From: Maribacter arenosus
GTDB taxonomy: Bacteria; Bacteroidota; Bacteroidia; Flavobacteriales; Flavobacteriaceae
DNA: 64,000 bases
Direction of reading: 5' to 3'
NCBI RefSeq assembly: GCF_014610845.1
Contig: NZ_JABTCG010000003.1
Coordinates: forward strand, 558,001 to 622,000
A program made the position numbers and the translations under genes. How positions within the stretch are numbered: position 1 is the first letter of the stretch; each line of letters starts with the position of its first letter. Below the pieces are notes generated by a model. That model made no database searches. It worked only from the letters and a program-made list of their open reading frames with translations, and was not told where the DNA came from. This document shows positions 9,049 to 48,570 of this stretch, piece by piece.

Positions 9049-9750
9049 ATGGTAATTAAACAATTAGCCCGACATAAGGAAGAGAACGATTTTGAACAAT
9101 TCTATAATAAAATATCGGCAATGGAGCCTGATTTACGGAAATTCATGACGAGGAGCCTCAAGGCTGCGGAGAATCAAGGGGCCATTGATCGGGGGTTTTA
9201 TAATGCCGATGAACTTTTAGATGAGATTTATTTGGAGATGTTCGAAGAGTTCGCGGATTATATGGATAAAGAAAAAATAAAAACGATTTTGTTTTCAAAG
9301 GCGGTACAAAAAATTGAGGAGAAAAAGATTATAGAGCAAGAAACCCCTGAATATATCAGTACAGAGGAGATGTTAAAGGAAGAGCTGAATGCCTTGGACG
9401 AACAATTCACAATGGATGCCGATGGTGATTTGATACTCAATACCGAGTTGGACGATATTTCCTATAAGCAAATTTCGGATAGGCCGAACAACGTGATATT
9501 GGATACAACCTTGGAACAGGAATTAATAAAGAAATTGGATTTGAACGATTCCCTTTTGCCTTCTTTGGAACGTCGTACAACTTTTGGCGCACTCTTTACT
9601 AATATACCGCCAAGAACTAAATCGGTTTTAGAACTCTATGCCTTTGGAAATCGCAGTCACTTTGAAATTTCCGAAATACTTGAAGTTCCAGAAACCGTAA
9701 TCGATAGAATAATGGAAAAGATGAACGAACGCTTTAGGCTTATAGAATAG
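9049..9750 (+). CDS. Protein with C-terminal sigma-70-region-4-like helix-turn-helix
   Basis: This 233-residue protein has an acidic, helical N-terminal two-thirds without a recognised domain. Its last 50 residues (from about 183) look like sigma region 4: a segment of the form P-P-R-T-K-S-V-L-E-L-Y, then F-E-I-S-E-I-L-E-V-P and V-I-D-R-I-M-E-K-M. No convincing region 2 (promoter melting and -10 recognition) is visible, although residues 50-85 could be a degenerate version. It may be a divergent ECF-like factor or a regulator using a sigma-4 fold. It stands alone, with palindromic sites and a promoter-like sequence in its unusually long upstream region (8770-9048). Confidence 0.65.
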   Translation: MVIKQLARHKEENDFEQFYNKISAMEPDLRKFMTRSLKAAENQGAIDRGFYNADELLDEIYLEMFEEFADYMDKEKIKTILFSKAVQKIEEKKIIEQETPEYISTEEMLKEELNALDEQFTMDADGDLILNTELDDISYKQISDRPNNVILDTTLEQELIKKLDLNDSLLPSLERRTTFGALFTNIPPRTKSVLELYAFGNRSHFEISEILEVPETVIDRIMEKMNERFRLIE

Positions 9751-9751
9751 G

Positions 9752-11389
9752 TCAGCGATTCCCGGAGTCTCTTAACCGTTTGAAAAGTTGATAGGCAGCA
9801 TCCACTTTTTCTTTTGGGGCTTTTTGAAACTCTATATCCGTTACTTGATAGACAGCTTGCATTGAATCCAACTTTTTGTGCATTGTCGTAACGATTTCAG
9901 TATAGGCTGCATCCGAATAGGCGTTGTAAAGCTCAAGAGAGTCTTTTTCAAGGTCGTATAACTCCCAAGTGTCTATGTCATCGTAGAAATGCATTAGTTT
10001 GTAACGTTTTGTACGAATACCATAATGTTTTTTTACCATATGGAAGGCCGGATAATCGTAGTAATGATAATACACTACATCCCTAAAATCGGATTCATTC
10101 ATACTTCCATCTAACAGTCCCTTAAAGGATTCTCCCTGCATGTCCTGACCTAATTCCGAAAGATTGGCAAAATCTAGGAATGTTTGGGCGAAATCCAAGT
10201 TTTGTACCATGGCATTTATTTTTGTACCAGGTTCAATAATGCCTGGTAATTGCATCAATAATGGAGTTCCGAAGGACTCCTCATACATGAACCTTTTGTC
10301 GAACCATCCTTTCTCCCCGAGATAAAAACCTTGGTCCGAAGTGTAAACGACCAAGGTGTTTTCATCCAATCCACTTTCTTCCAAATAATCCAAAATACTG
10401 CCTATACCCTCGTCCACTGCTTTGATTGTTGCTAGGTAATCCTGTAAATACCGTTGCCCTTTCCATGCAGCCAATTCATTACCGGTCAAATTCGCCTTGT
10501 GAAAGGCGTTGTTTTTTGGCAGATAGTTTTCGTCCCATTGTTTTCGTTGTTCCAAGGTCATCCGTTCAAAATCGGTTGTCCAAGGATTATGGGCCAATTC
10601 AGTACTACCATAGGCTTTGGTCATTTTGAGATCATGCCCTTCGTACATATCTTTATAGATGGTCTGTAATTGCTCTTGGGCCGCCTGTTGGTTTATAAAC
10701 GTGGGGAAATAGGTTTCAGGTAAAGGGAATTGTACAGAGTCATATTTGTTGGTATGGCGTAAGGCCGGCATCCAATTTCTATGCGGTGCTTTATGTTGAA
10801 CCATTAAAAAGAAGGGTATGGAATCCTTTCTTTTATGCTGTAACCAATCCAGGGCGTCATTCGTAATAATGTCCGTGGCATAGCCTTCAATGCGGGTAGT
10901 ATCACCGTTTACAATAAAATCCGGATTGTAATAGTTTCCCTGGTCAACAATGATTTTCCAATGGTCAAAGCCCTGGGGATGACCGTGTAAATGCCATTTA
11001 CCTACAATAGCCGTTTGATACCCTGAAGCATTCAACATTTTTGGAAGGGTAGGTTGATTACCATCAAAGTGGTCCCCATTTTGCCTAAAACCATTAATAT
11101 GGCTATATTTTCCGGTAAGGATTACGGCCCTACTAGGCCCACAAATGGAGTTGGTCACAAAACTATGGTTGAATAATGCCCCGTTTGCAGCCAAACGGTC
11201 AATATTGGGGGTAGGTGCCAATTTACCAATCGGGTGCCCATAGGCACTGATAGCCTGGCTGGCATGATCGTCGGACATGATAAAAATGATATTCGGGGTA
11301 GCGGTTTGTTTTATAGGCTTAGGTGACTTATCCCTACAACCTAAGGTAATAAGGCCTAAGAAAAGTATTGTCAGTGCTTTATTGATCAT
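9752..11389 (-). CDS. S1-family sulfatase (lipoprotein)
   Basis: This 545-residue formylglycine-dependent sulfatase removes sulfate esters from glycans. The maturation motif is C83-G-P-S-R, where Cys83 becomes formylglycine. The metal-binding aspartates D40-D41 lie in IMSDDHASQAISAYG, and a second metal-site motif is YTSDQGFYLGEKGWFDKRF. The signal peptide ends in a lipobox (LITLGC, Cys18), so it is probably anchored to a membrane. The QAISAYG and KAPHRNWMP segments recall subfamilies annotated as N-acetylglucosamine-6-sulfatase, but substrate cannot be assigned. It is the last gene of the PUL operon, starting 2 bp after the GH3 stop. It is clearly similar to the sulfatase at 28510. Confidence 0.93.
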   Translation of the reverse strand: MINKALTILFLGLITLGCRDKSPKPIKQTATPNIIFIMSDDHASQAISAYGHPIGKLAPTPNIDRLAANGALFNHSFVTNSICGPSRAVILTGKYSHINGFRQNGDHFDGNQPTLPKMLNASGYQTAIVGKWHLHGHPQGFDHWKIIVDQGNYYNPDFIVNGDTTRIEGYATDIITNDALDWLQHKRKDSIPFFLMVQHKAPHRNWMPALRHTNKYDSVQFPLPETYFPTFINQQAAQEQLQTIYKDMYEGHDLKMTKAYGSTELAHNPWTTDFERMTLEQRKQWDENYLPKNNAFHKANLTGNELAAWKGQRYLQDYLATIKAVDEGIGSILDYLEESGLDENTLVVYTSDQGFYLGEKGWFDKRFMYEESFGTPLLMQLPGIIEPGTKINAMVQNLDFAQTFLDFANLSELGQDMQGESFKGLLDGSMNESDFRDVVYYHYYDYPAFHMVKKHYGIRTKRYKLMHFYDDIDTWELYDLEKDSLELYNAYSDAAYTEIVTTMHKKLDSMQAVYQVTDIEFQKAPKEKVDAAYQLFKRLRDSGNR

Positions 11390-11391
11390 TC

Positions 11392-13674
11392 CTAGTTCAT
11401 TTCTAACCTGAAGGATGTTTTCAGAGTGTCATCCGAATTTGTACCTATAAAAATTTCAAATTCCCCGGGTTCCGCGACGTAATCTAAATCATAATTGTAA
11501 AACTTAAGATCTTCAATTGTAATGGAAAAGGTTACAGATTTGGTTTCACCCTTATTCAATGCTACCTTTTGAAACCCCTTCAATTCCTTAACAGGTCTCG
11601 TGACGGTGCCAATTACATCACGTATATATAATTGGACCACTTCCTTACCATCAAAATCACCCGTATTCGTTACATCAACCGTTACTTTGATAGTGTCGTT
11701 TTCAGTCATTTTATCCGAGCTTAACCTTAGATTATCATATGTAAAGTTGGTATAACTCAATCCAAATCCAAAGGGATACACGGGTTCATTTCGTTCATCG
11801 ATATAATTGGAGGTAAATTTTTCAAACTTACCTTCCTTATTTTGAAGGGGACGACCTGTGTTTTTATGATTATAAAAAAGTGGAATCTGTCCGATACTTC
11901 GTGGGAATGTTGCAGTTAATTTCCCTGACGGATTAACATCCCCAAAAAGCACATCTGAAATTGCCAAACCCGCTTCACTTCCTGGGAACCAAACATTTAG
12001 AATGGCAGGCACTGTTTTGCTTTCTTCCTTTAAAACTAGGGGCCTACCGGTAAATAATACCATAACCACAGGTTTCCCTGTTTTTAGTAAGGCTTTTAAC
12101 AAATCTTGTTGAACTTGAGGGATTTCAATATTGGTTCTGCTGCTACTTTCACCACTAAATTCAGCAGACTCTCCAAGTGCTGCAACAATCACGTCTGCCT
12201 TTGATGCGATTTCCAGGGCCTCGTTTAGTAACACTGCATCAGACCTATTATCCCTATTGAGTTCCTTTCCAAACATCGTTGCTCTTTGCTCCAATTCGGC
12301 ATCGTATGTAAGATTACTTCCTTTGGCATATACTATTTTCACCTTATCGCCAACAACGGTATTTAAGCCTTCCAACAAGGCGATTGACTTATTTTGAACA
12401 GTCGCCACACTCCACGTTCCTGCCATATTTTCCTTTGAATTGGCAAGCGGTCCTACTATAGCGATGGTTCCCGATTTTTTTAAGGGTAATAGTTGATTTT
12501 CATTTTTCAATAGAACCATTGATTGAGAGGCAACTTCCCTTGAAAAATGGCGATTATCCTCTGTGAATATTTCCGCTTGTGCCCTGTTTATATCGCAATA
12601 TTTATAGGGATCATCGAATAATCCTAAATCATATTTGGCCTTTAAGATCCTTCTGACGGCATTATCAATTTGTATCATATTTACACTGCCTTCCTCTACG
12701 GATTTCATCAACGTAGTCAGAAATCCTTCACCGATCATGTCCATATCCAAACCTGCATTTAACGCTAAAGCCGAACTGGTTTGCAAATCACCCATCCCAT
12801 GCTCGATCATTTCATTAACTCCGGTGTAATCACTCACCACAAATCCTTTAAATCCCCATTGCTTTCGTAAGAGATCTGTCAACAACCATTTATTTCCAGT
12901 GGCAGGTATTCCGTCTATTTCGTTAAAAGAAGCCATAACCGAACCTACGCCAGCGTCAATAGCCGCTTTATATGGGGGTAAATATTCATTATACATACGT
13001 ATTCTGCTCATATCAACTGTATTATAATCCCTTCCAGCCTCAGAAGCACCGTATAAAGCAAAATGTTTAACACAGGACATTATGGTGTTATTCTTGGTCA
13101 AATCATCACCTTGATATCCGCGAACCATTGCCTTTGCTATTTCGCTTCCTAAATAAGGGTCTTCCCCGGAACCTTCAGAAAATCTGCCCCAGCGCGGATC
13201 TCTTGATATGTCAACCATAGGGGAAAAGGTCCAGTTGATGCCATCCGCACTGGCTTCAGTCGCAGCCATTCGAGCGGTTTTTTCTATCAATCCCATATCC
13301 CAAGAAGTCGACAACCCCAAGGGTATCGGAAATGTTGTTCTATATCCATGAATAACATCCAAGCCAAACAATAAAGGGATCTTCAAACGGCTTTTTTCAA
13401 CCGCGATTTTTTGGACTTCCTTAATTTTTTCAACCGATGTGATGTTCAGCAACCCGCCTACCATTCCCGCCTCAATTTTCTTAGCGATATCCGAATTCTG
13501 TGCTTGACCGGTTACCACATCGCCGGACCCAGGTAAATTCAATTGCCCAATTTTTTCTTCCAAGGTCATTTTACCCAGGAGTTCTTCTACGAACGGATTG
13601 GTTTCCTGTGCTTGGAGAAGGATAGTGCAGCATAACATTAAGACCGGTAAAATAATCGATTTAAGGATTTTCAT
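11392..13674 (-). CDS. GH3 beta-glucosidase (BglX-like, secreted)
   Basis: The 760-residue glycoside hydrolase has a signal peptide (cut after about residue 23, LLQAQ). It carries the GH3 N-terminal barrel with nucleophile D282 in VVSDYTGV, the GH3 C-terminal domain with probable acid/base E509 in the S-G-E motif, and a fibronectin-III-like terminal domain (about 670-755). Substrate-site motifs KHFALYGASEAGRDYNTVD and RDPRWGR are intact. GH3 enzymes of this type release glucose from beta-glucooligosaccharides. In some Bacteroides loci they are paired with GH144 enzymes and act on beta-1,2-linked oligosaccharides. It lies in the PUL operon, 17 bp after the GH43-like gene. Confidence 0.93.
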   Translation of the reverse strand: MKILKSIILPVLMLCCTILLQAQETNPFVEELLGKMTLEEKIGQLNLPGSGDVVTGQAQNSDIAKKIEAGMVGGLLNITSVEKIKEVQKIAVEKSRLKIPLLFGLDVIHGYRTTFPIPLGLSTSWDMGLIEKTARMAATEASADGINWTFSPMVDISRDPRWGRFSEGSGEDPYLGSEIAKAMVRGYQGDDLTKNNTIMSCVKHFALYGASEAGRDYNTVDMSRIRMYNEYLPPYKAAIDAGVGSVMASFNEIDGIPATGNKWLLTDLLRKQWGFKGFVVSDYTGVNEMIEHGMGDLQTSSALALNAGLDMDMIGEGFLTTLMKSVEEGSVNMIQIDNAVRRILKAKYDLGLFDDPYKYCDINRAQAEIFTEDNRHFSREVASQSMVLLKNENQLLPLKKSGTIAIVGPLANSKENMAGTWSVATVQNKSIALLEGLNTVVGDKVKIVYAKGSNLTYDAELEQRATMFGKELNRDNRSDAVLLNEALEIASKADVIVAALGESAEFSGESSSRTNIEIPQVQQDLLKALLKTGKPVVMVLFTGRPLVLKEESKTVPAILNVWFPGSEAGLAISDVLFGDVNPSGKLTATFPRSIGQIPLFYNHKNTGRPLQNKEGKFEKFTSNYIDERNEPVYPFGFGLSYTNFTYDNLRLSSDKMTENDTIKVTVDVTNTGDFDGKEVVQLYIRDVIGTVTRPVKELKGFQKVALNKGETKSVTFSITIEDLKFYNYDLDYVAEPGEFEIFIGTNSDDTLKTSFRLEMN

Positions 13675-13691
13675 CGTTTGTTCTTTTTTGT

Positions 13692-15464
13692 TTATTCGAC
13701 TTCCATGACTTGGGATTTTTTGGAAATGCCATTGTTATTAAAAGCCTCGATCTGAAAATAATAGGTATCGGTTCTATCGGCACCCGTAAAGTAATACTCG
13801 TTTTTGCCATAGACCATTATACTACCATAGAGTTTGTCGGGCGATTTCCCCCAATAAATCACATAGCCATCGGCCAATTGGTTTTGTTGCCATTTAAACC
13901 AAATACTGCGTCGTTCACCAAATTTCTTAGGATTCGCCCTTAGAACAGTAAATTGCTGGACCTCCTCGGGTGGTTGTCCACCGCCTTTACCAAAAACCCG
14001 AAAGCCACTTAGGGCAAATTTTCCGGTTGGCATATGTAGATTTTCCATTTTGAGGTACCGCGCACGTAGGGGAGTGCCCATTTCGACATAATCATGGGGT
14101 ACATCCTTATCATTCTTACTTTTGTCAACTATAGTCTTCCATGTTTTACCGTCCTCGGAGGCATGAATTTTATATTGGTGGAATGTCCCTAATTTTTTTC
14201 CCATAAATTCAACATCCTGATCCGCGTAGTTGATCTGAATGGCATAAACAGATGATACTTCCCCTAAGTCGGTCTTAAACCATTCGCCTTTTTCCCCTGT
14301 TTGGGCGCACCAATAGGTCTTGATGTCTTCATCAACTGCAAAATTAGGTTGGTAACCTCCTAGGATCGAGGATACTTGAACCGGTTTTTGGTAATTCAGT
14401 AGCATCCATCCCGCAAAGAGTCCTTTTGAAAAATCCATTTCTTTTGCATGTTCGGGCAGCAGGGTTGGATAATCGCCATAAGCCGTATTGCAGAACATGA
14501 CATCGTCTTCATCAAAACCTGCAGGCCAAATACCTATACGGCGTTCGAAATTGTTTTTTACCGAAATTACCATTGTTGAGACGTGCCAGTAATTTTCATG
14601 GTTATCTTGGAAGGTGGCCCCATGGCCAGCACCACTTGCAAATCCGCCGGGTTTATATGAAAAAGGGTTGTGCTTCTGGTATTGAAACCGTCTAAGGGGG
14701 TCGTCACTGACATATACCCCGTCTGCATAACCACTGAACTCCGTACCAGGAGCCGCATATTGCATATAGTATTTACCATTGTGTTTTGTCATCCAGGCAC
14801 CTTCAATAAAAGGAGGTAAAAAAACATTGTCGTTATATTCCCCAAAGCGCTCCCACCCATGATCTTCGGGGTGCAAACCCATAAGTGCAACGGTATACCC
14901 TTCAGACTGCATGGTCTTGGTGTTAATTTCAGTGCCCAGTAGTGGATTTACATTGCTGGAACCCCAGTAGAGAAAGAGTCGGTTATCCTCTTCGTCATAG
15001 TGAAAAGCTGGGTCCCATGCACCTACTTTGAGGGTATCAACGGCAATTTGCCAATCATCCTCGGTCGGATTCGTGCTTTTATAAATAGGAAAATCGGATT
15101 CCCACGTAGATCCATATACATAAAGAGTGTCACACATGGCCCAGGCAGCAGGGGCATTTAAATCGTGTATATACTTATCATCACGAAGAAACTTACGATA
15201 GACGAATTGCCAGCTGAGCATATCATCACTCCACCAATAACCTTCTTGATTGGTCGAAAAAAGAAAGTACTTGTTTTTAAAGTTTACGATTACCGGATCG
15301 GCGGTAGTACGGTGTTTTCCTTTCTCGGAAAAACGCTCAAAGGGGGTGTACCCATAGTCAATATTTAAAGGATTGCAATAGGTGGTGTTTTTTCTTTTCT
15401 GAGCAACAAGGGAAAAAGAGCAGAGTAGCAGTAAAAAGAGAATATCTTTAAAGTCAGGTTTCAT
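13692..15464 (-). CDS. GH43-like glycosidase with F5/8-type-C and Fn3 domains
   Basis: This 590-residue secreted protein starts with a signal peptide (cut near residue 21). A five-bladed-propeller GH43-like domain covers about residues 25-340. Candidate catalytic acids are the Asp of R-T-T-A-D-P-V, the Asp of GAWDPAFHYDEEDNRLFLYWG and the Glu of PPFIEGAWMTKHNGKYYMQYA. A discoidin/F5-8C carbohydrate-binding domain follows (about 355-495) and an Fn3-like domain ends the protein (about 500-590). The acid triad needs structural confirmation, and specificity could be arabinosidase, xylosidase, galactosidase or other. It is the middle gene of the PUL operon, between the GH144 pair and GH3. Confidence 0.82.
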   Translation of the reverse strand: MKPDFKDILFLLLLCSFSLVAQKRKNTTYCNPLNIDYGYTPFERFSEKGKHRTTADPVIVNFKNKYFLFSTNQEGYWWSDDMLSWQFVYRKFLRDDKYIHDLNAPAAWAMCDTLYVYGSTWESDFPIYKSTNPTEDDWQIAVDTLKVGAWDPAFHYDEEDNRLFLYWGSSNVNPLLGTEINTKTMQSEGYTVALMGLHPEDHGWERFGEYNDNVFLPPFIEGAWMTKHNGKYYMQYAAPGTEFSGYADGVYVSDDPLRRFQYQKHNPFSYKPGGFASGAGHGATFQDNHENYWHVSTMVISVKNNFERRIGIWPAGFDEDDVMFCNTAYGDYPTLLPEHAKEMDFSKGLFAGWMLLNYQKPVQVSSILGGYQPNFAVDEDIKTYWCAQTGEKGEWFKTDLGEVSSVYAIQINYADQDVEFMGKKLGTFHQYKIHASEDGKTWKTIVDKSKNDKDVPHDYVEMGTPLRARYLKMENLHMPTGKFALSGFRVFGKGGGQPPEEVQQFTVLRANPKKFGERRSIWFKWQQNQLADGYVIYWGKSPDKLYGSIMVYGKNEYYFTGADRTDTYYFQIEAFNNNGISKKSQVMEVE

Positions 15465-15490
15465 CGGTTCATTTTTATGTCTTTAAAAAT

Positions 15491-16876
15491 TTACAAAAAT
15501 GAAAAGCCAAGTTTGGTAAGGCCATTTTGGACTTCTTCGTTTTGCATGAATAGGTTCCATAACAAACCTGACCTATAATTTTCAATCATAATAATTTGGG
15601 GTCCTTGATCTATGGCCAAATAGGCTTCTGCCACCCAAAAGTTGTTCTGAGGGCTGAAGGCATCATAGAAACCTGCAGGACCCAATAATTTATCCTTATT
15701 CTTATAAAAATAATGAAGTGCCCGCATCGATTCTTCAGGAGTGTAGGGCATGGAACTAATAGCGGCGGTAGGTGAAATTACCCCAGTATCATTAGAGGGA
15801 CTATGGGCGTTATATCCTAAACTACCATCGTTGTTTCGGGTATAACTTGCTGTAAGTCCCCAGCAATCCTCCCCGTAATCGGTATAATTCTTAGGGTTTT
15901 CTTCACAATACAGGTAATTTATTTTAGAATGGTTTACACTAACGTCCCAATAATCCACATACGCATCGGACAGTGATTTAGGGTTTAAGCCCAAATAGGA
16001 GTAATGGGCCCAAAATAGAGGCCCACCGTAAGGCGAATTGCCAGCATGGTCTACGAGTAAAGGCAGGTTGTATTTGGTTTCGGCCGAAGTGAAATTCCCG
16101 TTAGAGGCCCATCCGTTAGTATACACCTCCTTGGTTATCGAATAATCCGGAGATGCTGCTGCCATGATATAAGCAATAAGAACTTCATTGTATCCTTTCA
16201 ATTCAAAGTTTATTTCAAAATTGTGGTTGGGGCTCCAGTGCCAGTACAACGCATTTTTATTTTGGGTGTACCAGTCCCATTCAACGCCCTTCCAAAGTTC
16301 GTCAGCTTTGTCGGCCAGTGCTTTTTCATCAATAGATCCATTCTTAAAGTATTCCTTTATACAAATAAGTCCTTGGGCCAAAAATGCGGTTTCGACCAAG
16401 TCACCGCCATCATCCAAGGCGCTAAATGGTTTTACTTGACCGGAACTGCCATCGAGCCAATGTGGCCATGCCCCATGAAAACGATCTGCTGATTCTAAAA
16501 ACCCCAATATTTTTCCGAGTCTAACTACGGCTTGATCTTTAGTGATAAAACCTCTTTCAACACCTACCAAAATAGCCATAAGGCCAAATCCCGTACCACC
16601 TGTGGTAACCGTTAGGGGGTCGTTTGATGGATTGGAAGGATGATATCTTTCTCGGGCCGCACCCGAATTGGTTTCGGCAAAATCCCAAAAATACTTGAAC
16701 GTTTCTTCCTGGGTAAGATCTAATAAGTCTTCATCAGCAATCAGTGGTGTTTCATCAATCGGTTCCTCCTTGGAATCTTCAGGTAGTTCTGAAACACCAA
16801 TAGGGCCTGTACCGTCATTGGAAGAACATGACGACAGTAATAAAATGTAAAATAAATGTCCAAGTACCTTCTTCAT
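15491..16876 (-). CDS. GH144-type endo-beta-1,2-glucanase-like lipoprotein (second copy)
   Basis: The 461-residue lipoprotein (lipobox LLLSSC, Cys17) carries an alpha/alpha-barrel of the Pfam Glycoamylase family, the family on which CAZy GH144 endo-beta-1,2-glucanases are based. Recognisable blocks are TFKYFWDFAE, GGTGFGLMAILVGVERGFIT, RFHGAWPHWLDG, GGDLVETAFLAQGL, FWAHYSYLGLNPKSLSD and PTAAISSMPYTPEESMRALH. Its start overlaps the stop of the other copy by 4 bp (ATGA). The linker after the lipid anchor is acidic and low in complexity (residues 18-48). Surface location is likely. Activity on beta-1,2-glucan is inferred from the family. Confidence 0.88.
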   Translation of the reverse strand: MKKVLGHLFYILLLSSCSSNDGTGPIGVSELPEDSKEEPIDETPLIADEDLLDLTQEETFKYFWDFAETNSGAARERYHPSNPSNDPLTVTTGGTGFGLMAILVGVERGFITKDQAVVRLGKILGFLESADRFHGAWPHWLDGSSGQVKPFSALDDGGDLVETAFLAQGLICIKEYFKNGSIDEKALADKADELWKGVEWDWYTQNKNALYWHWSPNHNFEINFELKGYNEVLIAYIMAAASPDYSITKEVYTNGWASNGNFTSAETKYNLPLLVDHAGNSPYGGPLFWAHYSYLGLNPKSLSDAYVDYWDVSVNHSKINYLYCEENPKNYTDYGEDCWGLTASYTRNNDGSLGYNAHSPSNDTGVISPTAAISSMPYTPEESMRALHYFYKNKDKLLGPAGFYDAFSPQNNFWVAEAYLAIDQGPQIIMIENYRSGLLWNLFMQNEEVQNGLTKLGFSFL

Positions 16877-18237
16877 GATTCGGATTTCGTGGATTTAAAG
16901 CCTAATTTGTGTAATCCACGCTGAACATCGGAATTCTTCATAAAAAGTTTCCAGAACAACCCACTTCTATAATTTTCGATCATCACTGGGATAGGTCCTT
17001 GATCAATTGCCAAATATCGAGGTAAATACCATTTATGTTCAATGCTAAAGGCATCGTAAGGGCCATATTTACCGATTAACGAATCTTGCCCGGTATACAT
17101 AAACCGCAAAAACGCAATACTCTGTTCGGGGGTATACGGCATTGATGAAAGTGCTGCGGTAGGGGAAATTACCCCAAGGTCTCTGTCAGGGCGATGGCCG
17201 GCATATCCTTTTATGGAATAGCTAGAGGTCAATCCCCAGCATTGTTCCCCATAACCTTTAAAATGATTGGGATTTTCTACAGCATACTTGTAATGTATCA
17301 AGGCATGGTTTTGGTTCAATTTCCAATAATCCGCGTATTGATCGGATAATCCGTTGGGATCCAATCCCAAATAGGAGTAATGTGCCCAAAAAAGAGGCCC
17401 AACCGGGGAATTATCGTGCTCGTAATGGTCCAGTACGGTTGGTAGACCATAATACACCGTATCTTTTTTTATGGCGCCATTACGGGCCCAACCTTTTTCG
17501 TATACTTCCTTCTTAATCGGATGGGTAGGGGAGGCTGCCGCCAAAACGTACATAATGAGTGCTTCATTGTACCCGCCAACCGGAAAGTTCATTTCCCAGC
17601 CGAAGGTAGGTGACCAATGCCAAAACAATACATCTTCACCTTCTTGCGTATACCAATCCCATTCGACTTCTTCCCATAATTGTTGAATTGCATTTGCAAG
17701 GCGTTTTTCCCTTTCATTGCCGTCCTTAAAATACTCTTTTACGGTAAGTAACCCTTGGATAAGAAATGCGGTTTCGACCAAATCGCCACCATTGTCCTTG
17801 GTACTAAAAGGGGCAACCTTTCCTGTTGGCAACAGCCAATGGGGCCATGCTCCATGAAAACGATCAGCTTTGGTTAAAAAAGCTATTGCTTTTTCATAAC
17901 GTTCCAGAGCTTGTTCACGGGTTATGAAATCACGTTCCACTCCGACTAAAATCGCCATAAGTCCGAAGCCCGATCCACCGATGGTAATGATATCCTTATC
18001 ATGTGTAGGATAGATATTATCCAAGTGGATACGCTCCCGGGCCAGACCTGAAATAGGTTCGGCGCCTTCCCAAAAATATTCGAATGTCTGCTTTTGTACG
18101 GAGTCCAATAAGGCAATGTCGGTTACCTCTGCCATTTTCGAAGCAGGTGCAGATACGACAGATTTCTTTTTAGAAAAATGACCGTTACAACCAACTAACA
18201 AAGATGCAACGGCCATTGTAAACACTATTAACCTCAT
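16873..18237 (-). CDS. GH144-type endo-beta-1,2-glucanase-like lipoprotein (first copy)
   Basis: The 454-residue lipoprotein (lipobox LLVGC, Cys17) is homologous over its whole length to the next gene. It shows the same blocks: TFEYFWEGAE, GGSGFGLMAILVGVERDFIT, RFHGAWPHWLLPTG, GGDLVETAFLIQGL, WDWYTQ, FWAHYSYLGLDPNGLSD and PTAALSSMPYTPEQSI. It has clearly diverged from its partner, so the two copies may differ in subsite preference or product length. It is translationally coupled to the second copy through a 4-bp overlap. It probably cleaves beta-glucan at the cell surface before SusC/D uptake. The substrate is inferred from the family. Confidence 0.88.
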   Translation of the reverse strand: MRLIVFTMAVASLLVGCNGHFSKKKSVVSAPASKMAEVTDIALLDSVQKQTFEYFWEGAEPISGLARERIHLDNIYPTHDKDIITIGGSGFGLMAILVGVERDFITREQALERYEKAIAFLTKADRFHGAWPHWLLPTGKVAPFSTKDNGGDLVETAFLIQGLLTVKEYFKDGNEREKRLANAIQQLWEEVEWDWYTQEGEDVLFWHWSPTFGWEMNFPVGGYNEALIMYVLAAASPTHPIKKEVYEKGWARNGAIKKDTVYYGLPTVLDHYEHDNSPVGPLFWAHYSYLGLDPNGLSDQYADYWKLNQNHALIHYKYAVENPNHFKGYGEQCWGLTSSYSIKGYAGHRPDRDLGVISPTAALSSMPYTPEQSIAFLRFMYTGQDSLIGKYGPYDAFSIEHKWYLPRYLAIDQGPIPVMIENYRSGLFWKLFMKNSDVQRGLHKLGFKSTKSES

Positions 18238-18300
18238 AAATGATGTTAAAAAATTAAACTAACTCAAACAACTCAACTAAATTTTTTAAAATATGGTATA

Positions 18301-20673: not shown

Positions 20674-20698
20674 CTTTTCTCTGATATTAGTTGTTTGT

Positions 20699-22243: not shown

Positions 22244-22254
22244 AATAGCTTTTT

Positions 22255-25200
22255 TTATATTTTAATGTTTACACCAATCGTATATGTAGCGGGAATGGGA
22301 TAGGTCTCATTATCTACGCCATTTGACACCTCTGGATTGAAACCATTATAGCTGAACAGGGTCAGTGGTTTTTCCGCAGTCACATAAATGCGGGTACTTG
22401 GCACTCCTTTGAGTTTACCGTTTTTGTTTATGGTATATCCCAAGGTAAGATTTTGTATCCTAAAAAAGTCACCATCTTCTACCCAATAATCGCTCAATCT
22501 CTGGTTCCATCCTTTACGGGCTCCTGCCGAGGAGGGATAACTATTTGTGGTTCCTTCACCATGCCAGCGATTAACTGCAAAATCCCGGTCCCAGTTGGTG
22601 TCATTGGTAAAGATCACCTCCCCACGTTTACGATTAAGGATTTTATTCCCTCCCTGACCCGTACCGGCCGCCGAAAAGTCCCAATTCTTATAATTGACCC
22701 CTAAATTGATTCCAAAGGTATAAGAAGGTAAAAAAGAACCTAAAACGACCCTATCATCATCTGTGATGTCCCCATCGCCATTAATGTCCTTGTATTTGAA
22801 ATCACCAGGCTCTAAATTATTGGCCACGGCTACGGGATCTGCTTGGATTTCGGCATCATTTTGGTACACACCAGCTATTTCCCTGCCATAGAAGGCAAAA
22901 ATCGGTTCCCCAACGATGGATCGCTGTCTAAACTCCGCGGTACCTGCATCCAGGTGTGGTTGCCCACCAAGATCGAGCACTTCATTCTTTAAAGTAGAAA
23001 AGTTAGCACCGATATTATAGCTAAAGTCCTCTGATACTTTCTTATCCCAATTTAAAGCTATTTCCAGACCTGAATTACGGATTTCCCCAATGTTCTGTCT
23101 TGTAGATCCTGGAATCAATGCCCGTTCTACGGGTATGACTGCATCCTTGGTATCCCTGACATAATAATCCGCTTCCAAGGAAAGATTATTGTCCAATAGC
23201 CTGGCACTGATACCAGCGTTGATTTCTTCCGTGACCTCCCATTTCAAAGCGGTAAAATCACTGCTGGTGGTCACTCCACTGAACATGGTGTCGCCCAGTG
23301 CGGTCGTTACCACAGAAGAAGTTATAGATCCAGAACTTGCGGCCACCTTGTCATTACCCAATTTTCCCCAACTGGTACGTAATTTCAAGAAATCGAAAAT
23401 TCCATTGTCCTGCATAAAGGATTCGCCGGTAACGACCCAACCAGCACCAATGGTAGGAAAGTAGCCCCATTTTTCTTGATACTTATTCGTGCCATCGGCC
23501 CTAAAAGTACCGTATAGCAAATAACGATTATCGTAATTGTAGGAAACCCGGCTGAAATATGAAAATCCATATTCCCTTGCCCCCCCATCCTTAACATCTT
23601 CTACCACTATGGTCTGTGCTTGGTCTATAAAGTAAGCTTCTTCGCCGGACAAGGGGAAATTGAGGGCCCTGGCTTCGAGCATGTCATAGGCCTCATCCCT
23701 GAAGGAGGTTCCTGCCAATACGGTTAGATTATGTTTATTAAAACTATCGGTATAGGTAAGCGTATTATCCCAAATCTGATTGGAGAAGGTCTCACTTCGT
23801 TTAAATAAATTCGCATCTTCGCGTTGGAAGTTATTGCCAATAAAGTAGGGAAGCCTTACCTCTCTTCGATCTATGGTTTGAAAATTATGGTTATAAGCGG
23901 TCTTGAAAGTCAGTTTTTCAGGAACGATATTGATCTGGGCATAAAAATTGGCCAGCACATTTCTAATTTTAGACCTTTGTTCGCTATTGTCCATTGTGGG
24001 AAATGGGTTTTGTCCGCCCCTATACCCTAAATCCTGTGCGTTGGCATAGTTTGTTGGGAAGACGGCAGGGTCGTTGGCCAATATATCATCGTAAACGGGT
24101 AAGATCGGTACTGCATAATACGCCAATCGCCATGCGGAATTCTCTGCATCATATCTCGTAGCATTACTGATTACGGCATTACCGCCTATGGTAAGCCATT
24201 CCGAAGCCTTGAAATCGATCTTACTCCTTAAATTAAATCGTTCATATTCGTTCTTCATTTTAAGGATACCCTCTTGGCCAAAATAGTTGGCCCCAATGGC
24301 ATATGTGGCATCTTCACTTCCCCCTGTAACACCAATACTATGATTTCGAATCAATGCAGACCGTATTATTTGATCATACCAATCTGTATTAACATCAGGA
24401 ATGTTAGGGTTAACCCTACTACGGCCATAACGTTGCATGGCATTTAATATGAATTCCGCATCGGGTGCAGATCCCGATTCAAGGGCAAGCGTCGTGAATT
24501 GTTCGGCATTGGCCAATTTTAAAATATTCTGTGCTACCTGATATCCCGTATATCCATCATATGTAATCTGGGCCTTTTGGTTATAAGAACCTGATTTGGT
24601 TTCGATAAGTACGACCCCATTGGCTGCCCGAACACCATAAATGGCTGCTGCAGAGGCATCCTTTAAGACGGAAATAGAGGTAATATCAGCAGTATTCAGA
24701 AAATCTATATTATCAAAGAACATTCCGTCTACAACATACAAAGGGGCAGAGGTGTCAGTATCGTTCGTATCGGTACCGTAAGACCCAATACCCCGTACAC
24801 GTATCACAGGCGATTGTCCGGGTCCTCCACTATTTATCACTTGCAAACCGGCAACCTTACCTTGTAAGGCTTGCATGGCCTGACCTGTAGGGGTACCTGC
24901 CAACTCTTCCGACTTGATGGTGGTAATCGACGAAGTAAGATCTTTGGATTTCATTTCACCATAACCGATCACTACGACCTCATCCAGGGCTTGGGCGTCC
25001 TCTGCCAAAGACACTGAAATAGTACTTCTACCATCAACGGCTATATTTTGGGTGACAAACCCCAGGTAACTGATCGATAAAATCCCATCGGAGGCTACAT
25101 TGTCCAAAGTGAAATTACCATCAAAATCTGTTTGCGTTCCTGTAGTAGTTCCTTGAACCACAACACTGGCGCCCGGCAAGGGTTGCCCCTCAGTATCGGA

Positions 25201-25287
25201 TACCGTCCCAGATACCGTAATACCACCTTGCGCATAAATTGCCATTTGGGACAAAAAAAACAAGATTGTTAAAATTGTATTTCTCAT
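22255..25287 (-). CDS. SusC/RagA-family TonB-linked outer-membrane transporter
   Basis: This 1010-residue TonB-dependent transporter imports oligosaccharides across the outer membrane. It has a signal peptide (cut near residue 20) and a carboxypeptidase-regulatory-like N-terminal domain (about 22-100, GTVSDTEGQPLPGASVVVQG). The TonB-box/plug start is ALDEVVVIGYGEMKSKDLTS, the plug contains the SusC signature around VRGIGSYGTD and DASAAAIYGVRAANGVVLIETK, and a long barrel ends in TYTIGVNIKI. It is the first gene of the PUL operon and is preceded by a 239-bp non-coding region that must hold the operon promoter. Confidence 0.97.
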   Translation of the reverse strand: MRNTILTILFFLSQMAIYAQGGITVSGTVSDTEGQPLPGASVVVQGTTTGTQTDFDGNFTLDNVASDGILSISYLGFVTQNIAVDGRSTISVSLAEDAQALDEVVVIGYGEMKSKDLTSSITTIKSEELAGTPTGQAMQALQGKVAGLQVINSGGPGQSPVIRVRGIGSYGTDTNDTDTSAPLYVVDGMFFDNIDFLNTADITSISVLKDASAAAIYGVRAANGVVLIETKSGSYNQKAQITYDGYTGYQVAQNILKLANAEQFTTLALESGSAPDAEFILNAMQRYGRSRVNPNIPDVNTDWYDQIIRSALIRNHSIGVTGGSEDATYAIGANYFGQEGILKMKNEYERFNLRSKIDFKASEWLTIGGNAVISNATRYDAENSAWRLAYYAVPILPVYDDILANDPAVFPTNYANAQDLGYRGGQNPFPTMDNSEQRSKIRNVLANFYAQINIVPEKLTFKTAYNHNFQTIDRREVRLPYFIGNNFQREDANLFKRSETFSNQIWDNTLTYTDSFNKHNLTVLAGTSFRDEAYDMLEARALNFPLSGEEAYFIDQAQTIVVEDVKDGGAREYGFSYFSRVSYNYDNRYLLYGTFRADGTNKYQEKWGYFPTIGAGWVVTGESFMQDNGIFDFLKLRTSWGKLGNDKVAASSGSITSSVVTTALGDTMFSGVTTSSDFTALKWEVTEEINAGISARLLDNNLSLEADYYVRDTKDAVIPVERALIPGSTRQNIGEIRNSGLEIALNWDKKVSEDFSYNIGANFSTLKNEVLDLGGQPHLDAGTAEFRQRSIVGEPIFAFYGREIAGVYQNDAEIQADPVAVANNLEPGDFKYKDINGDGDITDDDRVVLGSFLPSYTFGINLGVNYKNWDFSAAGTGQGGNKILNRKRGEVIFTNDTNWDRDFAVNRWHGEGTTNSYPSSAGARKGWNQRLSDYWVEDGDFFRIQNLTLGYTINKNGKLKGVPSTRIYVTAEKPLTLFSYNGFNPEVSNGVDNETYPIPATYTIGVNIKI

Positions 25288-25526
25288 TTTAAAGATTGTT
25301 TAAGAATTAGTTTGAATATTTACTAAATTACTAACAATCAAAGGTTGAACCCACTCTGGCAGGTACATAAAAATTACATCATATGAATAGTGCTTCATAG
25401 ACCCTATAATAGGGGTGTTTGCAGTAGTGAATTTGATTAATTGATTCTTAAATTTAACATAATGATGTACTAATGATGTAGTTGGTGTGCAAGGAATAGA
25501 AGAGGAAACCTGTATAATCCTAAAGG
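25288..25526. promoter_or_regulatory. Upstream region of the PUL operon
   Basis: This 239-bp non-coding stretch lies between the regulator gene and susC. I see no clear TTTG/TAnnTTTG pair on the minus strand. The 9-mer GTACATAAA (25363-25371) is shared with the sulfatase promoter region at 28463. It is a plausible location for regulator binding but is unproven. Confidence 0.4.
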
Positions 25527-28283
25527 TCAGTTAAATTTGATCAAAAAGTTTGAAAGATTTTGTGAGCTATCGATTTTTAGCTTTTTCCGAAGTCGGTAAC
25601 GATGGATCTCAACCCCTCTATTGGTTATGGCCATTAAGGGAGCAATCTCTTTGGACGAAAGGTTCATTTTCAAATATGCGCATAACTTCAGGTCTTTTGG
25701 GGTCAGATTTGGGTACTTCTTTAGTAGGTTTTCAAAAAAGTCTTCATGGAGTTCTTTGAAATTGACTTCGAAATGCTTCCAATCACCATCATCATTAATC
25801 GAGTTGTCCAATTTTTTGATAAATGATCCATAGCGCTTTTGGTTGGTGAATTGGCTTTTATTCACCAATAGCATTTCCTTTAATTCAAGAATTACTTTGT
25901 TCTTTTCAGCCATATTCATCGTTGTCCTGGCCAGTTCTTTCTGTTTTTGTCTAATTTCCCTTTCCAATTTTTCTTTTTCCAATTTGGCCAATCTTTCCTC
26001 CTGTTCCCTATGAAACCTTTCTTTTAGTATACGATGTTTTTTATCCAACTTTTTTCTGTTGTACCAACGTATTAAGAAAACCATTCCAATTAGGGCAAGG
26101 AGATACATCGCCATACTCAACTTTGATAAATACCAGGGAGGGGCGATTTCAAATCGGATGGTTTTGGGGTCGGATCTTTCATTATCTATTCGGATCGTAG
26201 AAACGTCCAGTTCATAACTACCGAAAGGCAGGTTTTGAAGCTTAATGACACCGTTCTCAATATCATCAGCTTGGTCCATAGGACCCTTCAATTCAAAATG
26301 ATACTTGGGTTCTACCAAACTCGGCGATGATACATTCACTAGTATATCATGTGACATGTTATAGGGTACGTGGAATACTTCATTTTCCAATGGATATGTT
26401 TTTTGCCCATCTTCAAAGGAAACAAGTTTTGGTTTGGGTAATTCAAAATCTTCAAGACGTTCATTGAATTTATATAGGTCAAGTTGTCCAAAACCATCAT
26501 TTAAGGTGAAGTAATAAATGGAATCATTTAACTTAATAATATTTTCCGATTCTGGGGCCAAACGTTCTTGTAACTGAATATCATCTAACACTAAATCAGC
26601 GTCTTTTAAATCGGTATATAGGACTTCTTTTGAGCCCTCGTTATCTATAAACCAAAAAAATGTATCGTCGTGGTGAATGAGATTTTTATGGTTATAGCCC
26701 TGGAATTCCTCAAAAAGTTCAATTTTCTTTTCTATTGGGTTATATCTGTACCAAATACCCTCAATATAAAGCGCTATTTGATTTCTTATGTTATATACCT
26801 TTACGTTGTAATTGGTTGGTATTACTCCTGTGGTAAATTCGATCTTCTCAATTACCTCATCATAGGCGTCATTCAATACGATCCTGAACAAACCTTTATA
26901 AGGGTGTGCGGCCCAAAGGGTATGGGTATCCTCAAAACATAAGTATTTTACCGGTTTGTCCATGCCTACTATTGAGGTGACAATCCACGTGCCATTAATA
27001 TCTTTTTCATATTTGGCGAGGCCAATATAAGTTCCTTGGATAAAGGAAGTATTTGATTCGGGTACCTTTACGATCTGATAGCCCCCGGTAATGCTTGATA
27101 TTTTTTCAAATGAATTTTTGTTTACCCTATAAGTACCTGTGTTATGGCCGCAAAAAAGTTCACCATGGGTTACATTCAAATCCCAAACATGTCCTTGGGA
27201 ACCTTCAACAAATTCCAAAGTATCGTTATTAAAATAATAGATACCTGTATTGCTTCCCATATAGAGGACATTTTCATGAACCGCAAGATCATATACGGTT
27301 CCAACAGTCCCTGAATAATCGGTATAATAGGTTAACGGGTTGCTTAATTGAACACGGTCTATGCCATTGTCCAAACCTACCCACAATTGTTCTTTATACT
27401 GCATCATAGATAGAACGGTGTTGTTCTGTAGCCCAACCTGCCGGTTTAACCTTTGGCTGGTTTTACTATCATTATCGTATAAATAAATCCCATTCTTTAT
27501 GGTTCCAAAGGCTATCTTGTTCCTCGATAGGGATAGGATTTGATTCAATTGATATTGTTTTAATTGTGTATTAATACCTATTTCGAATGGGATTATTTTT
27601 TCTTCCGTCATTAAATAACAACCATTTCTTTTTGTACCAATAAGAAGACCTTCCTTAATATCGGTCATGGCAATGATTACCTTATTCGATAACATTTCGT
27701 GCTCTTCCAAGGGATCAAGACTATCGTTAATAAGCTCATAAAGTCTTTTATGTCCTCCTGCGACCAAAATCTTATTTTTATAAATTGAAACAAATGTTAC
27801 CACAAAAGGAGGGTCGATAACGGTGATTTCATCATTCTTTAAAATATAAATTCCGTTAAAAGATCTAAATATTATTGAGTCCCCGTATGGCAAAATTTGC
27901 CAGAATTCCTCACTTGTAAAAACATGGTCCTTTATTAAATGGGTCAGGGAAGTGTAAAGGAGCACACCGAATCTGTTTTTGGTCCAATAACCAAACTCTT
28001 CATATGATCCGGTATAGATTTTGCCATCAATATGTGCTACCGACCGTATGGTGGTTTTATTGGGAAGCTTGTAAAGTTTCCATTTTTCACCATTAAAGTG
28101 AAGTAATCCGCTATTGTTGGCGACAAATAATTCACCCTCACTATTTGTCGATAGTCCCCAATTCTTACTATCTGCCTGGTATTCAAAAATCTTATAGTTA
28201 TGAATGGGGGGCAACAATTCTTGGGCACTCATCCAAAGGGGTGCAGACCATATGGTAAGAATAAGGGCTAAGATTGGCTTCAT
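25527..28283 (-). CDS. SusR-like sensor regulator: beta-propeller, Y_Y_Y, membrane helix, LuxR-type HTH
   Basis: The ATG at 28283 gives 918 residues with a good signal peptide (MKPILALILTIWSAPLWMSAQ, read to residue 20). A GTG seven codons upstream is possible but less likely. Two-component-regulator-type propeller repeats fill about residues 30-620 (for example WGLSTNSEGELFVANNSGLL). A Y_Y_Y-like domain ends near residue 735, a membrane helix lies at about 743-762, a coiled coil follows, and a LuxR/GerE-like HTH closes the protein (LTPKDLKLCAYLKMNLSSKE). There is no histidine kinase or receiver domain. It probably senses an oligosaccharide in the periplasm and controls the adjoining SusCD operon and sulfatase directly from the membrane. 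Confidence 0.9.
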   Translation of the reverse strand: MKPILALILTIWSAPLWMSAQELLPPIHNYKIFEYQADSKNWGLSTNSEGELFVANNSGLLHFNGEKWKLYKLPNKTTIRSVAHIDGKIYTGSYEEFGYWTKNRFGVLLYTSLTHLIKDHVFTSEEFWQILPYGDSIIFRSFNGIYILKNDEITVIDPPFVVTFVSIYKNKILVAGGHKRLYELINDSLDPLEEHEMLSNKVIIAMTDIKEGLLIGTKRNGCYLMTEEKIIPFEIGINTQLKQYQLNQILSLSRNKIAFGTIKNGIYLYDNDSKTSQRLNRQVGLQNNTVLSMMQYKEQLWVGLDNGIDRVQLSNPLTYYTDYSGTVGTVYDLAVHENVLYMGSNTGIYYFNNDTLEFVEGSQGHVWDLNVTHGELFCGHNTGTYRVNKNSFEKISSITGGYQIVKVPESNTSFIQGTYIGLAKYEKDINGTWIVTSIVGMDKPVKYLCFEDTHTLWAAHPYKGLFRIVLNDAYDEVIEKIEFTTGVIPTNYNVKVYNIRNQIALYIEGIWYRYNPIEKKIELFEEFQGYNHKNLIHHDDTFFWFIDNEGSKEVLYTDLKDADLVLDDIQLQERLAPESENIIKLNDSIYYFTLNDGFGQLDLYKFNERLEDFELPKPKLVSFEDGQKTYPLENEVFHVPYNMSHDILVNVSSPSLVEPKYHFELKGPMDQADDIENGVIKLQNLPFGSYELDVSTIRIDNERSDPKTIRFEIAPPWYLSKLSMAMYLLALIGMVFLIRWYNRKKLDKKHRILKERFHREQEERLAKLEKEKLEREIRQKQKELARTTMNMAEKNKVILELKEMLLVNKSQFTNQKRYGSFIKKLDNSINDDGDWKHFEVNFKELHEDFFENLLKKYPNLTPKDLKLCAYLKMNLSSKEIAPLMAITNRGVEIHRYRLRKKLKIDSSQNLSNFLIKFN

Positions 28284-28460
28284 TTTATAGTACTTCTTCT
28301 TCACTATCAGGATAAAGATAAGCCAAAGTTATTTTAAAAAAGTATCAGGATTTCTTTAGAATAAGGGTTTGCCATCCAGATTGCTTCGCATTGGCACACT
28401 TTTTTATAGGAAGAGAAAACATTATTAGCTTCCATCGGGGAAATCCTGTAATTTTAAAAA

Positions 28461-28493
28461 ATGTACATAAATATTTATGCTATAGATGTACAT
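28461..28493. promoter_or_regulatory. Two ATGTACAT palindromes upstream of the divergent sulfatase
   Basis: The 8-bp palindrome ATGTACAT occurs at 28461-28468 and again at 28486-28493, 25 bp apart centre to centre, just before the start at 28510. The second copy is 16 bp from the start codon. It could be a dimer-of-dimers operator for the adjacent regulator. Confidence 0.4.
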
Positions 28494-28509
28494 CAAACTT
28501 TAAAATTCA

Positions 28510-30186
28510 ATGAGAAATTATTCATTTCTGTTAGCCCTTTTTATTGGCCCGCTTTTTTATAATTGCGAAATACCCGGAAAGGAAGCCCCAAAACGCCCTA
28601 ATATTATTTTCATCATGTCCGATGATCATGCCTACCAAGCGATTTCGGCTTATGATACCCGTCTAATTAAGACCCCGAACATTGACCGTATTGCCGAAAT
28701 GGGAATGCTCTTTACCAATGCCACGGTCACGAACTCCATTTGTGCACCTTCAAGGGCTACGATTCTTACGGGAAAACACTCCCATATCAATGGGAAAATC
28801 GATAATCACTTTCCTTTCGATACGACCAATGTCACTTTTCCGCAGTTACTACAAAAGTCTGGTTATGAAACCGCCATGTTCGGGAAACTGCATTTTGGCA
28901 ATAATCCAAAGGGCTTTGACCAGTTTAAGATTTTACCCGGACAAGGGGCTTATTACAATCCTGACTTTATCACGAAAAATGAAGGAAATATTAATGTAAA
29001 GGGATATGTTACCGATATTATTACGGATATGACTTTGGATTGGTTCGAAAAAGAACGTAATCCAAATAAACCTTTTATGCTGATGTACCTGCACAAAGCA
29101 CCCCACCGGTCCTGGGTCATGGCCGAACGACATATGGCGGAGTATACCCAAAAAACCTTCCCCGAACCAGCGACTCTTTTTGATGATTATGCAGGTAGAC
29201 CTGCTGCCAAAGCCGCCGAAATGAGCATTTTAAGACATATGAGCTGGATCGCGGATTCGAAGATTTTCCCCGAGGTTATGGATGAAATGGAACTTCCTCC
29301 GTTTGGTACCGACAAGATGAGAAATCAGTTTGGGGCGCAAAACCGAATGGACTCCGCACAACTATCAAATTTTAAAAATGCCTACCAAAATATAAATGAG
29401 AGGTTCAAAGCCAATTATCCGACTATGACTGAGGAGGAAAAAATGAAATGGCGTTATCAACGGTATATGCAGGATTATCTGGGAACCATAAAAGCGGTCG
29501 ATGAAAATGTGGGTCGGATGCTAGATTATTTGGAAACCAATGATTTGCTCGAGAATACGATAATCGTATATACTTCAGATCAAGGCTTTTATCTTGGTGA
29601 ACACGGTTGGTTCGATAAACGTTTCGTCTATGATGAATCCCTCAAAACGCCATTACTTATAGCTTGGCCGGGCCAGGTCGAAGCCGGTTCCAAATCTAAT
29701 GAAATGGTACAGAACCTGGATTTTGCCCAGACCTTCTTAGATGTGGCTGGTATCGACCAACCAGATGATATGCAGGGCGAAAGTTTACTTCCGATATTAA
29801 CGGGACGTATGGATGATTGGCATAGGGAAGCGGTTTATTACCATTATTACGAATACCCTGCCGAACATATGGTAAATAGGCACTATGCCATAATAACCAA
29901 AGAGTACAAGTTGATCCATTATTATTTTGATTTGGATTATTGGGAACTCATCGATCGTAAAAAAGACCCAAAGGAACTGCATAACGTTTATAATGATCCT
30001 GCCTATGCCGATATTAAAGAAATGCTACATAGGGAATTAAAGGAGATTCGCAGAAAGTATGGAGATAGTAATGAACTAAGCCAACAGTATTTAAACACTT
30101 TTCTTCGCGATATAGAAGAAAAAGGGATATTTGGGATACCGCAAGAAAAATTGGACGAAATATTGGATAAAAACACCAAGAATTAA
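28510..30186 (+). CDS. S1-family sulfatase (lipoprotein), divergent member of the PUL
   Basis: The 558-residue sulfatase has maturation motif C78-A-P-S-R, where Cys78 becomes formylglycine, followed by ATILTGK. Metal-site aspartates are in IMSDDHAYQAISAYD, and the second metal-site motif is YTSDQGFYLGEHGWFDKRF. Its signal peptide ends at a lipobox-like LFYNC (Cys19). It is similar along its length to the sulfatase at 9752 but differs in the substrate-facing insert (about residues 215-290), so the two may remove sulfate from different positions. It is transcribed away from the regulator gene, with palindromic sites in its upstream region. Confidence 0.93.
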   Translation: MRNYSFLLALFIGPLFYNCEIPGKEAPKRPNIIFIMSDDHAYQAISAYDTRLIKTPNIDRIAEMGMLFTNATVTNSICAPSRATILTGKHSHINGKIDNHFPFDTTNVTFPQLLQKSGYETAMFGKLHFGNNPKGFDQFKILPGQGAYYNPDFITKNEGNINVKGYVTDIITDMTLDWFEKERNPNKPFMLMYLHKAPHRSWVMAERHMAEYTQKTFPEPATLFDDYAGRPAAKAAEMSILRHMSWIADSKIFPEVMDEMELPPFGTDKMRNQFGAQNRMDSAQLSNFKNAYQNINERFKANYPTMTEEEKMKWRYQRYMQDYLGTIKAVDENVGRMLDYLETNDLLENTIIVYTSDQGFYLGEHGWFDKRFVYDESLKTPLLIAWPGQVEAGSKSNEMVQNLDFAQTFLDVAGIDQPDDMQGESLLPILTGRMDDWHREAVYYHYYEYPAEHMVNRHYAIITKEYKLIHYYFDLDYWELIDRKKDPKELHNVYNDPAYADIKEMLHRELKEIRRKYGDSNELSQQYLNTFLRDIEEKGIFGIPQEKLDEILDKNTKN

Positions 30187-48465: not shown

Positions 48466-48570
48466 AAATTAAGGGCAAACGTTGATTTCGATTTCTATTG
48501 GGTCAATCCTATCCTTTCTTTGGTTCATAATTTAATCAAAATGAGATCAATAACGTTAAACAATGTAATT

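Follow-up and report, generated by a model that had tools for sequence, protein, structure and literature searches.

The stretch of DNA analyzed here (the window) comprises 64,000 nucleotides of the genome of Maribacter arenosus (RefSeq assembly GCF_014610845.1, contig NZ_JABTCG010000003.1, positions 558,001 to 622,000 of the forward strand), and coordinates below are positions within it unless a locus handle precedes them. On its minus strand, from 9752 to 25287, lie eight genes in the order susC-susD-LamG-GH144a-GH144b-GH43-like-GH3-sulfatase (GH, glycoside hydrolase; the sulfatase is referred to as SulfA). From the gene sequences, we interpret this operon as a polysaccharide utilization locus (PUL) for a beta-1,2-glucan in which some glucose units would carry a 6-O-sulfate, a reading to which we assign a probability of about 0.5.

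Gene content and layout of the locus

A preliminary description of this DNA had proposed the eight-gene operon, with a regulator and a second sulfatase upstream. All 10 of its open reading frames (ORFs) are open, with families as named there, and the Pfam and NCBIfam matches together with tight spacing on a single strand (from a 4-bp overlap to 63 bp) bear out the operon. A convergent gene (9049-9750, plus strand) adjoins its SulfA end.

The SusC-type TonB-dependent importer (22255-25287, minus strand, as for all operon genes) scores 812.8 bits against TIGR04056 (cut-off 368). It is followed by a SusD-type lipoprotein (20699-22243; PF07980, 80.1 bits) with a Cys behind a hydrophobic leader and then acidic residues, and by a presumed surface glycan-binding lipoprotein (18301-20673) with three LamG domains (PF13385, Laminin_G_3, 223.7 bits) and a Big_7 domain. 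Thus, the locus has the susC-susD pair, the co-oriented glycan enzymes, and the neighboring regulator by which a SusCD PUL is recognized. The gene order recurs, well beyond chance, in many of 80 named GH144 loci used for comparison. It should be noted that these are the best 80 of at least 568, picked by their GH144, so shares among them are not shares in nature.

The GH144 enzymes and the GH3

Two adjacent genes encode proteins of the endo-beta-1,2-glucanase type, GH144a (16873-18237) and GH144b (15491-16876), with PF10091 scores of 274 and 271 bits, respectively. By sequence comparison, the nearest solved structure for both is CpSGL, the founder of GH144 (5gzk/5gzh; 591 bits to 5gzk for GH144a and 534 for GH144b). 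The key residues of CpSGL discussed in PMC12102758 (this and the other papers cited are drawn on through excerpts of their text) are D135, D139, E142, E211, F268, Y330, and D400; they correspond to D148, D152, E155, E225, F283, Y345, and D412 of GH144a and to D155, D159, E162, E231, F288, Y355, and D423 of GH144b, given an offset of 20 between structure chain and paper that was derived by hand. Relation to CpSGL and conservation of its key residues thus place both proteins in GH144. They differ from CpSGL in being two paralogues inside a PUL, with beta-1,2-glucan as their predicted substrate. A profile search of the genome found no other PF10091 genes.

The GH3 beta-glucosidase (11392-13674) matches 3u48 at 1167 bits and is close to 5xxl (1083 bits), which we take to be the beta-1,2-glucosidase BT3567. 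The combination of GH144 and GH3 for beta-1,2-glucan use, as suggested earlier, is supported at the sequence level, given the CpSGL residues kept in both GH144 proteins.

The preliminary description also raised the idea of a new GH144 specificity. In its general form, this would mean that the GH144 enzymes of marine bacteria had drifted to another linkage or sugar and that their polymer is something other than a beta-1,2-glucan. The excerpts consulted describe no characterized enzyme of the marine group (the GH144 enzymes named in PMC12102758 are CpSGL and XcSGL), which leaves room for such drift. However, because both window proteins keep the catalytic and clan-defining residues of CpSGL and match it across the whole domain, we consider a new specificity improbable.

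Two side observations belong here. Of 12 genomes belonging to the same genus as the window (some incomplete), only five gave a GH144 match, as compared with the statement in PMC8072126 that all Maribacter and Zobellia have its two GH144 genes. In addition, a protein of about 400 aa beside the GH3 gene at L135:8238-9437, belonging to a cluster found in three loci, has no Pfam match.

SulfA is probably an S1_11-type 6-O-sulfatase

SulfA (9752-11389) is the last gene of the operon. Its closest solved relative by sequence is 9s03 (819 bits), followed by 7p24 (BT3177) and 5g2v (BT4656) at ~500 bits each and by BuS1_11 (7lha) at 307 bits. The best match whose title names a different subfamily is 6hr5 (S1_25; 149 bits), although between it and the S1_11 matches lie 7ebp, 9s8y, and 7snj, whose records here name no subfamily. 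A structure model built from a 42-row alignment (pLDDT 87) has 5g2v and 7p24 as its best folds, with TM scores of 0.94 (normalized to the target) and 0.85 (normalized to the query) and with 46%-48% identity to BT4656 and BT3177 in the Foldseek alignment; 9s03 was not among the best 50 Foldseek matches of the model. The 9s03 entry may stem from not yet published work on the same system.

The formylglycine (FGly) motif C-x-P-S-R is intact, with C83, P85, S86, and R87 invariant in the 42 rows, as are D364, R366, H442, and H450 (candidate readers of O4 and O3). We take the FDKRF stretch to hold the Asp/Arg pair for O4. Fold, FGly motif, and FDKRF stretch are all shared with BT4656 and BT3177; those two have mucin and heparin enzymes as genomic partners, whereas that of SulfA is a glucanase. 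On this basis, SulfA is probably an S1_11-type 6-O-sulfatase.

Both BT3177 and BT4656 are named as S1_11 in PMC10154612, the former also in its structure title. According to the same source, S1_11 enzymes are exo-acting 6-O-sulfatases for N-acetylglucosamine (GlcNAc) that read O3 through a His and O4 through an Asp/Arg pair; about half of the subfamily, especially aquatic members, have no N-acetyl site, some members accept L-galactose, and L-galactose-6-sulfatases are included. Because the subfamily reads O3 and O4 and often lacks the N-acetyl site, a 6-O-sulfated glucose at the non-reducing end would plausibly suit SulfA.

The genome has four matches to PF03781 (FGE-type). As this family also includes proteins other than the enzyme that matures sulfatases, sulfatase maturation in this genome is possible.

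One sulfatase is mostly linked to GH144, the other mostly is not

The second sulfatase, SulfB (28510-30186, plus strand), is a divergent neighbor that is also S1_11-type (535 bits to 7p24, 504 to 5g2v, and 172 to 6hr5). The preliminary description treated the two sulfatases as one unit, and it is here that the two genes part company. Among 395 genomes of the order (with at most three candidates scored per genome in each sulfatase search), 113 have GH144. A SulfA ortholog (at least 62% identity) was found in 16 of the genomes and, as a split match (61% and 66%), in G159. SulfA lies 4-11 kb from a GH144 gene in 15 of these 17 genomes. SulfB orthologs at the same threshold occur in 11 places, plus a split match at G389:C8; 10 of the 11 and the split twelfth are unlinked to GH144, so that only the window's own copy is near it (1/12). 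Moreover, SulfB was not found upstream of the regulator in the stretches fetched for three same-genus relatives (L108-L110). Thus, one functionally linked sulfatase, SulfA, is supported by its genomic neighborhood, and SulfB probably does not belong to the core of the PUL.

The neighbors of SulfB genes in other genomes share no theme, as judged from eight proteins from L112-L114, L116, L117, and L121 (GH95, cytochrome, PHP, Wzz, GFO/IDH, peptidase S9, and DUFs). At L125:16675-18363 and L126:16705-18393, a SulfA gene is divergent from the regulator, the spot held by SulfB in the window.

It could be that the sulfatases are passengers with no role in beta-1,2-glucan use. Sulfatase genes are not rare in this genome (19 PF00884 matches, some of them partial, being pieces of one gene), and for SulfB the explanation is likely in part, given its scattered orthologs. 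For SulfA, however, the position 2 bp behind GH3 and the recurrent linkage argue the other way, and we regard this explanation for the sulfatases as very improbable.

The named loci give a second measure. Sixty-nine were assessable in the end (the other 11 of the 80 were omitted, their contig ends being too near). Of the 68 first assessed, 50 showed a sulfatase linked to GH144 within the stretch fetched. When genomes were searched for the 19 loci that did not (18 of the 68, plus L072), six proved to have a SulfA of 64%-66% identity 9-17 kb off on the same contig, and the other 13 had none at 62% or above. The final tally is a linked S1_11-type sulfatase in 56 of 69 GH144 PULs. In five loci (Draconibacterium, Maribellus, and Sunxiuqinia), the place of SulfA is taken by a SulfB-like lineage (63%-65%); the three of these included in the sulfatase tree form a single clade (support 100/99) within its SulfB group. 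Therefore, two S1_11-type lineages have joined GH144 PULs.

The regulator and its predicted operator

Upstream of susC is a sensor-regulator with a C-terminal LuxR-type helix-turn-helix (25527-28304, minus strand). Its position agrees with the preliminary description, and relatives precede susC in many loci. The label "SusR-like" given there is plausible but weakly backed: PF00196 (GerE) is the sole Pfam match, and the NCBIfam BT3442 family scores 25 bits, far below its cut-off of 940.

Between the regulator and susC (25364-25480, minus strand) are two direct repeats, both exact in the window, about 99 bp apart and inverted to each other: P1 (TACATCA-N4-TACATCA, 25463-25480) and P2 (TGATGTA-N4-TTATGTA, 25364-25381). 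Both, with up to two mismatches each, are present in 47 of 48 intergenic stretches whose neighboring regulator is 49% or more identical, a set in which some genomes were fetched twice and which so represents fewer than 48 independent genomes. Beside more distant regulators, both halves are present in five of 33 stretches, and P1 with or without P2 in 27 of 33. Shuffles preserving single-base content only gave 0.25 and 0.35 of 81 stretches. It is the conserved pair, not a single site, that stands out. Genome-wide, P1 with at most one mismatch occurs three times (the P1/P2 pair and one site on another contig) and its reversed control twice; P2 alone with up to two mismatches has three matches in the window, which eight of 100 shuffles reach, and so is not clearly above chance. 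The pair is likely the regulator's operator, as predicted from this conservation.

Being inside the operon, SulfA is predicted to be co-regulated with susCD. For SulfB no such prediction is made, because searches of the window and the genome found no P1/P2 pattern before it. Two ATGTACAT palindromes do precede SulfB (at 28461 and 28486, spanning 28461-28493, 25 bp apart), a count not above chance in the window (2 versus 1.18). A Bacteroidota-type promoter pattern gave two matches versus 4.3 expected.

The GH43-like enzyme is not a marker of a decorated glucan

The GH43-like protein with its F5/8C domain (13692-15464) matches PF04616 (53.9 bits) and PF00754 (61.2 bits), both above cut-off. Asp56, Asp151, and Glu221, which we presume to be catalytic from the general GH43 pattern, are invariant in 23 of 23 aligned rows, so that the protein has both the profile match and the Asp, Asp, Glu set of GH43. 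Its matches to PDB sequences are weak, and a model from the single sequence (pLDDT 31) is too poor for the fold to be read.

The gene is present in 92 of the 395 genomes, all of them among the 113 with GH144; these 92 are related to each other and therefore represent fewer than 92 independent events. It also lies inside GH144 PULs without a sulfatase in the stretch (L123, L127, and L141-L144), and no GH144 was seen in seven of 12 stretches fetched around it (L136-L140, L145, and L146, of which L139 stops short where its contig ends and L145 shows a susC relative at the margin). The preliminary description had read the enzyme as a sign of a sulfated, side-chain-bearing glucan. Because it accompanies GH144 in sulfatase-free PULs too, and elsewhere stands far from GH144, it is no such marker, and it appears to be a general component of beta-1,2-glucan use.

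This bears on the chief rival to a sulfated beta-1,2-glucan, a heteropolysaccharide or glycoconjugate with a beta-1,2-glucose part, in which SulfA would serve another 6-sulfated sugar (GlcNAc or L-galactose 6-sulfate) and the GH43-like enzyme would remove a side chain. S1_11 members are active on both of these sugars (PMC10154612), and GH2, GH95, or GH97 genes occur in the same gene run of some relatives. However, such extra enzymes are confined to few loci (clusters of six, two, and four among 94 scanned, with one representative of each annotated), a Pfam scan of the window operon found no hexosaminidase or galactosidase family, and the GH43-like gene is present in sulfatase-free PULs as well. 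We consider a mixed glycan unlikely, while giving it more weight than any other alternative.

Other decorations in related PULs

Sister PULs carry genes that might act on other substituents. An Abhydrolase_2 esterase gene is near GH144 and GH3 in 40 of 68 named loci (e.g., L016:12740-13534) and is absent from the window PUL; BD-FAE esterase and Exo_endo_phos genes are found in 23 and 25 of 68, respectively (one to three representatives served to assign the esterase and Exo_endo_phos families). The beta-1,2-glucans known from bacteria bear succinyl, acetyl, phosphoglycerol, and phosphoethanolamine groups (PMC11842490), and the sulfatase may be just one among a number of enzymes that remove decorations.

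Such substituents suggest a further alternative, in which SulfA, as an FGly hydrolase, would strip a phosphodiester (e.g., phosphoglycerol) instead of sulfate from decorated beta-1,2-glucans of bacteria, and esterase and phosphoesterase-type genes are frequent in GH144 PULs. The nearest characterized relatives of SulfA are nevertheless S1_11 sulfatases, with phosphonate monoester hydrolases at only ~73-77 bits, and of the alternatives considered here this is the most remote.

A replacement of sulfatase by esterase was also considered and rejected. The first count (both genes in 25 loci, esterase only in 15, sulfatase only in 25, and neither in three, of 68; Fisher p 0.024) hinted at it; independent pairs on the GH144a tree gave a sign test p of 1, and after addition of the six more distant linked SulfA genes the counts became 31, 10, 25, and three of 69 (p 0.21).

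Separately, some GH144 PULs contain genes of the Exo_endo_phos and calcineurin-like phosphoesterase types (L024:19225-20055 and L065:12889-13863), whose products are possible phosphoglycerol removers.

A putative pathway for a sulfated beta-1,2-glucan

We return to the reading of the operon as a PUL for a partly 6-O-sulfated beta-1,2-glucan. In the mechanism that we propose, the LamG protein and SusD would bind the glucan at the cell surface, where one GH144 lipoprotein would cleave it, and SusC would import the resulting oligosaccharides. Degradation to glucose would follow in the periplasm through the second GH144 enzyme, SulfA, and GH3, with SulfA acting as an exo-enzyme that removes the 6-O-sulfate from a gluco-configured non-reducing end. 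The regulator would sense an oligosaccharide and act at P1/P2, and the GH43-like enzyme would be an accessory of the general GH144 toolkit. The cell locations are predictions read from lipoprotein-like leaders only.

Several observations weigh against this reading. To our knowledge, no sulfated beta-1,2-glucan is known, and in a search of open-access literature we recognized no demonstrated example. The sugar of SulfA is not fixed by its subfamily, because S1_11 includes L-galactose-6-sulfatases. Also, the pocket may differ from those of characterized relatives, because the position four residues before the conserved Asp is Lys in 21 of 28 rows of the SulfA clade (Asn in five, His in two), including SulfA itself, whereas it is His in BT4656, BT3177, and all 14 SulfB-type rows. 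Linkage is imperfect: SulfA and GH144 are on different contigs in G231 and G159, and 13 of the 69 assessable GH144 PULs lack a linked S1_11-type sulfatase (several being draft or metagenome assemblies). On the GH144a tree the sulfatase label switches 12 times (a count that predates the six distant SulfA genes, which would alter it), and the near-identical GH144 pair L022/L025 differs in this label.

The kind of locus is not new. The preliminary description knew of no sulfated beta-1,2-glucan pathway, yet marine GH144 PULs with an added sulfatase were in print in 2019 (Lapebie et al. 2019; PMC6499787), with the suggestion of a marine polysaccharide, not yet known, that equals the terrestrial one except for being sulfated. 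A cluster of GH3, two GH144, susCD, and sulfatase genes followed for Maribacter dokdonensis 62-1 (Wolter et al. 2021; PMC8072126). The window PUL resembles those of 2019 in its pairing of GH144 with sulfatase, its marine setting, and the proposed sulfated beta-1,2-glucan; as compared with the excerpted 2019 text, what is added here is the sulfatase subfamily, the likely position of the sulfate, the linkage statistics, the predicted operator, and the split between the two sulfatases. The core gene set is like that of M. dokdonensis 62-1, although the excerpt describing that cluster makes no mention of a GH43-like gene or regulator. Excerpts of PMC9122927, PMC10405439, and PMC11748540 mention GH144 without linking it to a sulfatase or sulfated glucan, and the same open-access search recognized no S1_11 assignment for GH144 PULs.

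Since 2019, a widespread marine polymer deduced from genes alone has stood as a proposal. With the sulfatase clade, the likely 6-O position, the exact cassette, and the predicted operator now named, this proposal narrows to one testable sulfatase. It may also connect the PUL to a putative seawater metabolite without a known sink. A seawater time series (December 2025; PMC12911362) reported a putative identification of glucose 6-sulfate, or alternatively the galactose isomer, and described its synthesis and catabolism as unknown. A 6-O-sulfated glucan together with this PUL could be a source and sink of seawater glucose 6-sulfate. More tentatively, and with doubts of our own, we suggest a dedicated pathway, common to marine Bacteroidota, for a 6-O-sulfated beta-1,2-glucan not yet described, in which the SulfA clade would be the missing enzyme that connects this polymer to the glucose 6-sulfate putatively present in ocean dissolved organic matter, as source or sink.

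Other features of the window

Beyond the PUL, a CotH kinase-type protein (48520-50031, plus strand) is encoded upstream of a pair formed by a histidine kinase and a LytTR response regulator. Finally, an ORF of 690 aa at 57586-59658 (minus strand) has no Pfam match.

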